A stretch of 64,000 nucleotides of DNA from Candidatus Woesearchaeota archaeon (GTDB lineage Archaea; Nanobdellota; Nanobdellia; Woesearchaeales; ARS49): positions 17,070 to 81,069 of the forward strand of contig JACPID010000003.1 in assembly GCA_016188265.1 (NCBI GenBank). Direction: 5' to 3'. The number at the start of each line of letters is the position of its first letter. The stretch's first letter is position 1. Under the pieces are notes generated by a model. That model saw only the letters and a list, made by a program, of their open reading frames with translations. It made no database searches and had not been told where the DNA came from. This document shows positions 7,253 to 63,321 of this stretch, piece after piece. A program made the position numbers and the translations under genes.

Positions 7253-7342
7253 TTAGTTGAGGACATAAGTAAAGCATATATTATTCAACCTCAACTAAGT
7301 TGAAAAAGACAAACTATTTTATGTGTTACTTTTGTCTTTTTC
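7253..7342. ncRNA. Paired-hairpin element between divergent TA and asnS genes
   Basis: Stem 1 ttagttgagg/cctcaactaa (7253-7262/7289-7298), stem 2 gaaaaagacaaa/tttgtctttttc (7302-7313/7331-7342), 3-nt spacer; loop 1 acataa (7263-7268) complements loop 2 ttatgt (7319-7324). Confidence 0.5.
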
Positions 7343-7387
7343 TATTTTTACTAAACACTTAAAAACACTGCACATTGAAGTACACCT

Positions 7388-16554: not shown

Positions 16555-16932
16555 ATGCCCCACCAATGCGTAAGGTGCAATGCCATTTATGAAGATGGAA
16601 GCAAAGAAATTCTAAAAGGCTGTTCCTGCGGAGCTCGACTATTTTTTTTCATTAAAAAAGAAAGGCTAGAACAGCTTAAAAAAGATTTAGATGTTAATCT
16701 TTCAAATGAAGATAAAAAACAAATAGAAGAAGATGTGTATGACCTTATAGGAACAAAAGATCCTGATGCGCCTGTAATTTTAGACTTTGAAACAATACGC
16801 ATACTTAAACCAGGAAAATATGAAGTAGATCTTGTTCAGTTATTTAAAAAAGAACCTCTTGTTTTTAAATTAGAAGAAGGAAAATACATCATTGATTTGC
16901 CTGAAACATTTGAAAGACTTAAAAACAAATAG
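16555..16932 (+). CDS. Zn-ribbon protein (DUF2072-like)
   Basis: N-terminal CVRC...CSCG zinc ribbon (MPHQCVRCNAIYEDGSKEILKGCSCGARLFFF). Confidence 0.75.
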   Translation: MPHQCVRCNAIYEDGSKEILKGCSCGARLFFFIKKERLEQLKKDLDVNLSNEDKKQIEEDVYDLIGTKDPDAPVILDFETIRILKPGKYEVDLVQLFKKEPLVFKLEEGKYIIDLPETFERLKNK

Positions 16933-16942
16933 TTTTAACAAA

Positions 16943-17030
16943 TAGAAAACGAAATAAATAATAGGACAATAGTTTCGTTTTCTAAATAGTACGCGCCATA
17001 AGAGTGTCCTACAAATTATGGCGCGTACTA
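16943..17030 (+). repeat. Paired-hairpin repeat, copy 1
   Basis: Stem 1 tagaaaacgaaa/tttcgttttcta (12 bp, 18-nt loop); 2-nt spacer; stem 2 tagtacgcgccata/tatggcgcgtacta (14 bp, 16-nt loop). Loop 1 taggaca (16962-16968) complements loop 2 tgtccta (17005-17011). Confidence 0.9.
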
Positions 17031-17033
17031 AAA

Positions 17034-31133: not shown

Positions 31134-32066
31134 ATGTATGATGTTTTAATTGTTGGAGCAGGAGCAGCAGGACTAACTGCGGCAATTTATACTTGTAGAA
31201 AAAATTTGAAAACAGCAGTTATCAGCTTGGATATTGGTGGACAAACAAATCTTACTAATCATATTGAAAATTACCCCGGAGTTAATGCAATGCCAGGACC
31301 TCAATTAATGCAGAAATTTCAAGAAAATGCCTTAAATTTTGGTGCTGAGATTATTCCTGGAAAAGTAATTCATATAGATAAAAAAGATGATTTATTTGAA
31401 GTACAGTTAGCAAATGGTGAGAAAAATCAAACAAAAGTTGTAATACTTGCATTTGGAAAAGTTGCAAGAAGCCTAAATATCCCTGGAGAAGAAAAATTCT
31501 TTGGCAGAGGAGTAAGCACTTGCGCTACATGCGATTCTCCGCTTTATAAAAATAAGATTGCTGCAGTTGTTGGCGGGGGAAATTCAGGTGTTGAAGCTGC
31601 ATTGGAACTAGCAAGTATAGCAAAAAAAGTATACTTAATACACAGGCATCAAAAACTAAAAGCAGATGAAATAACTGTGAAAAAAGTTGAGAAACAACCA
31701 AATGTAGAAATAATATTAAACAGCCAACCAACAGAAATAATTGGAGATAAATTTGTAACAAGCATTATTGTCGAAGATGTTAAAACAAAAGAAAAAAAAG
31801 GCTTACACATTGATGGGGTATTTGTAGAAATAGGTTATGTAGTTGATACAAGCATGGTTAAACACTTAGCAAAGTTAAATAAAAGAAATGAAATAATTAT
31901 AACCGACAAATGTGAAACAAGCTGTCCTGGATTATTTGCTGCTGGAGATGTTACAACAATGCCATTTAAACAAACAGTTATTTCAGCAGGAGAAGGAGCA
32001 AAAGCAGCATTACAGGCATATTATTATTTAACAGGAGGAAAAGGTTCTACAATAGACTGGACATAA
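31134..32066 (+). CDS. trxB: Thioredoxin reductase
   Basis: GAGAAGLTAAIYTCRK, CATCDSPLY (CxxC), GGGNSGVEAA, GLFAAGDV. Confidence 0.93.
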   Translation: MYDVLIVGAGAAGLTAAIYTCRKNLKTAVISLDIGGQTNLTNHIENYPGVNAMPGPQLMQKFQENALNFGAEIIPGKVIHIDKKDDLFEVQLANGEKNQTKVVILAFGKVARSLNIPGEEKFFGRGVSTCATCDSPLYKNKIAAVVGGGNSGVEAALELASIAKKVYLIHRHQKLKADEITVKKVEKQPNVEIILNSQPTEIIGDKFVTSIIVEDVKTKEKKGLHIDGVFVEIGYVVDTSMVKHLAKLNKRNEIIITDKCETSCPGLFAAGDVTTMPFKQTVISAGEGAKAALQAYYYLTGGKGSTIDWT

Positions 32067-32069
32067 TAA

Positions 32070-32158
32070 TAGAAAACGAAATAAATAATAGGGCAATAGT
32101 TTCGTTTTCTAAATAGTACGCGCCATAAAGAGTGTCCTACAAATTATGGCGCGTACTA
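32070..32158 (+). repeat. Paired-hairpin repeat, copy 2
   Basis: Differs from 16943-17030 by one substitution (loop 1 taggaca>tagggca, 32089-32095) and one inserted A in loop 2; stems perfect; loop pairing kept through a G-U wobble. Confidence 0.9.
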
Positions 32159-32199
32159 TAAGCAAAAATATAAAAATACTTGAAGATTATTAACACATA

Positions 32200-63156: not shown

Positions 63157-63201
63157 TAGTACGCACCATAAAAAGTGTCCTACAAATTATGGCGCGCACT
63201 A
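63157..63201 (+). repeat. Paired-hairpin repeat, copy 3 (second hairpin only)
   Basis: tagtacgcaccata/tatggcgcgcacta with loop aaaagtgtcctacaaat; two A-C mismatches on the + strand. Confidence 0.8.
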
Positions 63202-63233
63202 AAATAACATCTGTGAGTTTTCTCTTAGAGTAA

Positions 63234-63321
63234 TGCCAGACATAAATAATTATACAAAATAGTTATGTCTGGCAGACTTAGTAACTGACAAGAATTGTAC
63301 AAATAATATGTCAGTTACTAA
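63234..63321 (+). ncRNA. Paired-hairpin element upstream of pilin-like genes (AATT-loop type)
   Basis: Stem A tgccagacataa/ttatgtctggca, loop ataattatacaaaatag; 3-nt spacer; stem B ttagtaactgaca/tgtcagttactaa, loop agaattgtacaaataata. Confidence 0.7.

Follow-up and report, generated by a model that had tools for sequence, protein, structure and literature searches.

The window (the whole stretch of 64,000 nt that was analysed, from a Candidatus Woesearchaeota archaeon) carries two copies of a short twin-hairpin repeat together with related elements. As the preliminary description stated, copy 2 begins 3 nt after the stop of trxB: the upstream open reading frame, which matches Pyr_redox_2 as expected of thioredoxin reductase, ends at 32066 and the repeat starts at 32070. 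The gap is 3 nt long because the left TAA of a target-site duplication sits there. Copy 1 lies 10 nt after a gene (16555-16932) matching OapC, an origin-associated protein. The features are listed below, named after the interpretation reached further on.

7254-7344, minus strand: related twin-hairpin MITE of another subfamily (AD type), target-site duplication AAA
16940-16942: left target-site duplication AAA of copy 1
16943-17030, plus strand: copy 1 of the twin-hairpin MITE, 88 bp
17031-17033: right target-site duplication AAA of copy 1
32067-32069: left target-site duplication TAA of copy 2, identical to 32159-32161
32070-32158, plus strand: copy 2, twin-hairpin MITE of 89 bp, TAG...CTA
32070-32111, plus strand: arm 1 of copy 2, stem TAGAAAACGAAA / TTTCGTTTTCTA, 18-nt loop with TAGGGCA
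32114-32158, plus strand: arm 2 of copy 2, stem TAGTACGCGCCATAA / TTATGGCGCGTACTA, loop with TGTCCTA
32070-32095, plus strand: putative left end-recognition sequence, positions 1-26 (TAG, free positions 4-8, positions 9-12, GGGC at 22-25), from cross-arm covariation and comparison with IS630 ends
32133-32158, minus strand: putative right end-recognition sequence, inverted, GGAC at 22-25, on the same grounds
32159-32161: right target-site duplication TAA of copy 2
63157-63201, plus strand: relic consisting of arm 2 only, same subfamily as copies 1 and 2
63231-63320, plus strand: related twin-hairpin element of the ATAC / TA-duplication subfamily (BC type)

Re-reading of the two copies confirmed two differences between them, a substitution and a base insertion, both located in loops. 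The former is an A-to-G change at about 32093 (TAGGACA to TAGGGCA) and the latter one extra A in the second loop of copy 2. Both stems are perfect in both copies, stem 1 being 12 bp long. The A-to-G change does create a G-U pair on the plus strand, where TAGGGCA and TGTCCTA pair at all seven positions with the fifth a wobble; on the minus strand the fifth position is a mismatch. Matches to the first hairpin with up to 3 mismatches numbered 0 in dinucleotide shuffles of the window. Elsewhere, the segment 15160-15361 of the window has a pair of 85-nt direct repeats, 88% identical and 117 nt apart, that read like a coding repeat.

Copies and target-site duplications

The host genome assembly (G000; 25 contigs, 924 kb) was joined (923,817 bp) and scanned with a profile of the element ends. 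It contains 11 full copies of the element represented by copies 1 and 2, and also five copies reduced to arm 1 or part of it, a short left-end piece and the arm-2 relic. All 11 full copies are bordered by exact 3-bp target-site duplications (AAA, TAA, TTA, ATA or TTT), with flanks that differ from copy to copy. Two of them are identical in sequence at different sites, which points to recent movement. A nested insertion was also found: the four-hairpin unit at C22:42188-42368 is a two-hairpin element whose linker has received a second one, and the empty form is present, reversed, at C22:33289-33378, so that CAAC-TA-GATTG in the empty site can be compared with CAAC-TA-(89 bp)-TA-GATTG in the filled one. 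This composite occurs at two places (C22:42188-42368 and C11:21573-21754) with unrelated flanks, and its outer ends therefore work despite arms lying about 90 bp apart. The whole-genome scan with the end profile found no autonomous copy; matching duplications occurred only on units of 88-181 bp. Five loci of the same genome (C4:54493, C4:56643, C7:3606, C25:106164 and C1:8068) carry a different repeat, about 180-200 bp long and with multiple hairpins (CACTAAGATTCCACTAGTG...), in copies 95-99% identical; it is probably another small mobile element and by eye is unrelated to the twin-hairpin MITE.

Across the order, a covariance model (R1) built from 19 copies, with E-values that are rough, matched 101 of 352 genomes in 68 of 220 genera, nearly all matches being 84-92 nt long. 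A phylum-wide draw of genomes added only two more outside the order, both weak and of the same class. IMG/VR gave no match to the element patterns, and a broad hairpin pattern run on genome and viral contigs returned mostly unrelated palindromes. Family statistics were computed on 114 elements from 45 genomes, some of them of ambiguous orientation. Of the 114 elements, 75 carried an exact 3-bp duplication where the TAG...CTA unit meets its flanks, compared with 9% when flanks from different genomes were mismatched, and agreement of the flanks at 4-mers dropped to 2 of 114. After the boundaries were re-registered, 75 elements had a 3-bp duplication and 19 a TA duplication.

Several individual genomes deserve comment. 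G232 has 16 exact matches to the first hairpin, and its assembly is broken by the repeat, since many contigs end within a copy. Its elements (L209-L233) adjoin AGAGAAGTTTGAAAT, with the inverse of AGAGAAGTTTGAAAT downstream, and several have internal deletions or have lost their 5' parts. In G113, three copies with equal scores (C4:54141, 60459 and 67489), spaced 6.3 and 7.0 kb apart, suggest a repeated gene module. Two apparent composites of 1.2 kb (L306) and 1.5 kb (L312) proved to be separate elements around toxin-antitoxin-like genes. These genes lie between neighbouring element ends in unrelated genomes (L306 386-1589 in G268 and L312 1501-3008 in G198), and they read as VapBC-like, with a PIN-domain protein and an RHH- or AbrB-like partner; they are perhaps there by chance, perhaps as cargo.

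End sequences and the probable transposase

The two ends of the element match each other at positions 1-3, 8-11 and 22-24, that is, terminal inverted repeats are present, and the identity between arms rises above the permuted level at no register other than 0, counted from the ends (z 6.9). Cross-arm covariation falls into two clusters, at positions 8-11 and 22-24 from each end. Positions 8-11 lie inside the stems and thus are not predicted by pairing between the loops, and the split into two clusters argues for a protein-read inverted repeat rather than one continuous helix. The two loops can pair because they contain the end-recognition sequence in opposite orientations. The loop motif at positions 22-25 also predicts the type of target duplication. 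Elements with NTAN in both arms had a TA duplication in 10 cases and a 3-bp duplication in 0, whereas those sharing other motifs had 35 3-bp and 3 TA duplications (Fisher p 4e-8, which is optimistic because copies of one subfamily are not independent).

An IS630-family transposase gene (DDE_3) is located on contig C19 of the host genome; its score for NF033545 falls just short of the threshold, as the gene is broken across two frames. One end of this IS630 copy survives, at C19:21837. Its positions 9-28 are identical to the ends of the sister MITE subfamily at 19 of 20 bases, whereas its positions 4-8 agree at 0 of 5 (left end) and 2 of 5 (right end). Other places in the genome with at least 17 of 20 matches are mostly MITE ends, with a few weak ones besides. 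Copy 2, by comparison, agrees with the IS630 end at only 13 of 20 (left) and 11 of 20 (right) of positions 9-28, with an architecture common to both. In G203, a 1-kb IS630 copy has TAGN5GACATAAGTAACGCAT at both ends, with different bases at 4-8, and lacks a palindrome. Since IS630 ends carry the loop sequence outside any hairpin, the loop sequence is the inner half of a transposase site. Recognition of the ends does not require the palindrome, which is missing from IS630 copies that bear these ends.

No transposase with GGAC-subfamily ends was found in the host genome, which is 98% complete. What it does have are fragments of DDE_Tnp_1 and rve genes, in degraded form, and a single IS630 that belongs to the other end class. 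The DDE_Tnp_1 and rve genes were rejected as mobilisers on account of having no flanking element ends, as was DDE_Tnp_1_2, whose loci have no end-like sequence around them. The copy-1/copy-2 subfamily duplicates 3 bp of A/T-rich sequence and not TA, which is duplicated only in the sister class. A characterised transposase of the IS630 family uses a pair of helix-turn-helix motifs to bind its 24-bp ends, and its insertions duplicate TA (PMC2170065). The two covarying clusters and the TA class fit an enzyme of this kind. The mobiliser class is thus most likely IS630 (Tc1/mariner superfamily); the sister subfamily is tied to it directly by its end sequences, and for the GGAC subfamily we infer the same class. 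Against this stand the failure to find a transposase with GGAC-type ends and the 3-bp duplication of most elements, which is not what IS630 elements normally produce.

Taken together, the twin-hairpin repeat is in all likelihood (probability about 0.85) a non-autonomous DNA transposon, a MITE, moved by a DDE transposase that recognises both ends. The element works like a MITE and has most of the properties that define one: it is short, multi-copy and non-coding, with inverted ends and a target duplication. The proposed unit is 88-91 bp of non-coding DNA with two facing palindromic arms. Each end would be a 26-bp recognition sequence: TAG comes first, followed by five unconstrained positions, a tetramer of the GACA type, AT-rich spacer sequence and, at 22-25, a motif that sets specificity. 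A DDE transposase made elsewhere would bind both ends. Insertion of the TAG...CTA unit would duplicate 3 bp (TA in the sister class). Each hairpin loop would be the inner part of an end sequence, which would make the loops reverse complements through the inverted-repeat design. Most simply, stem pairing kept with free sequence suggests that, during transposition or replication, the DNA of each arm functions as a hairpin or cruciform.

Alternative readings of the stems and loops

As the preliminary description had supposed, the stems are genuine; they are conserved, and compensatory changes in them are numerous. Within an arm, 4.8 of 5 bases at positions 4-8 pair, compared with 2.3-2.8 for permuted partners (z 15 and 16.5 for the two arms), while the same positions show no likeness between arms (z 0.8). 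It follows that stem pairing is conserved with free sequence in each arm separately, and recognition of the ends as sequence leaves the palindromy of positions 4-8 unexplained. One possible, though doubtful, alternative is that DNA structure comes first and sequence second: the arm hairpins, extruded as cruciforms or in single-stranded DNA and possibly docked by their loops, would be what the transposase or the replication machinery recognises. The free-sequence pairing just described agrees with such a model, and so does the geometry over 45 genomes, where arm size is constant and the loops are mostly 18-19 and 20-22 nt long. However, IS630 copies with the same ends have no palindrome, and the four-hairpin composite was duplicated to a second place with its outer arms far apart. 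Nor does the pattern of stem mismatches favour it, as 28 G-T and 22 A-C mismatches on the plus strand amount to no significant strand bias. An excess of G-U over A-C in a first stem count (25 vs 10 distinct events) vanished when loop length, and not the model, was used to orient the elements.

That same lack of strand bias, along with perfect stems of free sequence, would be produced if the palindromes were a by-product, without function, of template switching that corrects inverted repeats during replication. We consider this unlikely, as it accounts neither for arms of constant length in 45 genomes nor for the two arms differing in mid-stem yet not at TAG and GACA. A combined version, in which an archaeal IS630-like system with 3-bp duplications requires both ends to fold as DNA hairpins, perhaps loop-docked, so that structure and sequence together mark the element, strikes us as unlikely too, and slightly less probable than the by-product model.

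The preliminary description had instead read the repeat as a structured plus-strand RNA, whose two hairpins are docked by a selected loop-loop helix that tolerates G-U pairs. The complementarity of the loops does exceed chance: matched loops pair at -4.9 kcal/mol, compared with -3.3 +/- 0.3 for permuted ones (z -5.5), 6 of 7 loop pairs show two-sided changes in the first 19-sequence alignment (which leans to the R1 structure), and loop matches of 7-13 bp, different in sequence, recur in several genera. Selection on the plus-strand RNA is the part that found no support. Pairing on the minus strand scores at least as well (z -6.8). Among the loop mismatches of 94 oriented elements, G-U on the plus strand (50) is about as frequent as A-C (56), and likewise in well-paired elements (27 vs 26), so that G-U on the plus strand is not preferred. 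Of the 11 host-genome copies, five have perfect loop pairing, three have one G-U (copy 2, L004 and L011) and three are mispaired (L008, L009 and L010), which together with the equal G-U and A-C counts leaves selection for a plus-strand kissing RNA unsupported. Nor are the loops held constant in these copies, collected genome-wide, since loop positions vary at least as much as the rest (5 of 14 vs 11 of 75). The split of the covariation, and the presence of the same sequence at IS630 ends that have no hairpins, also speak against a loop-loop RNA helix. Moreover, the 3' side of genes is not favoured (33 left neighbours co-oriented vs 39 opposed), an absence of orientation preference that also speaks against a role as terminator or 3' UTR, and Rfam gave no match to the element. 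We therefore regard a selected kissing RNA as improbable.

IS200/IS605- and REP-type elements, which a Y1 HUH transposase moves in single-stranded form, make no target duplication; similar as they are in short size and subterminal hairpins, we give this origin almost no credence, because 3-bp or TA duplications are the rule here and no Y1_Tnp was found in G000, G001, G010, G013 or G232.

Described relatives and significance of the family

The nearest described cases to the twin-hairpin MITE are RUP with IS630-Spn1 and the two-armed CIR elements. RUP of Streptococcus pneumoniae is a non-coding intergenic repeat of about 100 bp, proposed to be moved in trans by the IS630-Spn1 transposase, whose terminal repeats it matches (PMC2229807). 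It resembles our element in being a small non-coding repeat linked to IS630 by matching ends, and has TA at its ends (PMC2229807); it differs in being bacterial rather than archaeal, in not being described as two facing hairpin arms, and in its TA, whereas most twin-hairpin elements duplicate 3 bp. In the CIR elements of Caulobacter and Brucella, the 5' and 3' halves each form a long stem-loop, with a linker between them and TA termini (PMC2229807), but they have no end-to-end inverted repeat and no known duplication, and carry a GANTC motif.

ISY100 and the IS630/Tc1-mariner group have 24-bp imperfect terminal repeats and a transposase with two helix-turn-helix motifs, and insert into and duplicate TA (PMC2170065). 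The TA class of twin-hairpin MITEs has ends in common with an IS630 copy of the host genome, but the MITE has no internal transposase, an extra palindromic arm and mostly a 3-bp duplication. Correia/NEMIS and ERIC MITEs are likewise short, with 5'-TA-3' termini, a target duplication and stem-loop transcripts (PMC2229807); they form one long end-to-end stem, in contrast to the two facing hairpins here.

A search of the openly accessible papers found no such MITE family in Woesearchaeota. The repeat seems to represent a MITE family, not described so far, of an order of uncultivated archaea. What is new is a twin-arm architecture spread over the order, stems that keep pairing while their sequence is free to vary, and the link between a loop motif and which of two types of duplication an element has. 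For copy 2 and its relatives, what was supposed to be an RNA signal becomes the signal of a mobile element, with a sister subfamily linked to IS630 transposases. More generally, complementarity of loops, and even two-sided covariation, can mislead where a repeat has inverted ends.
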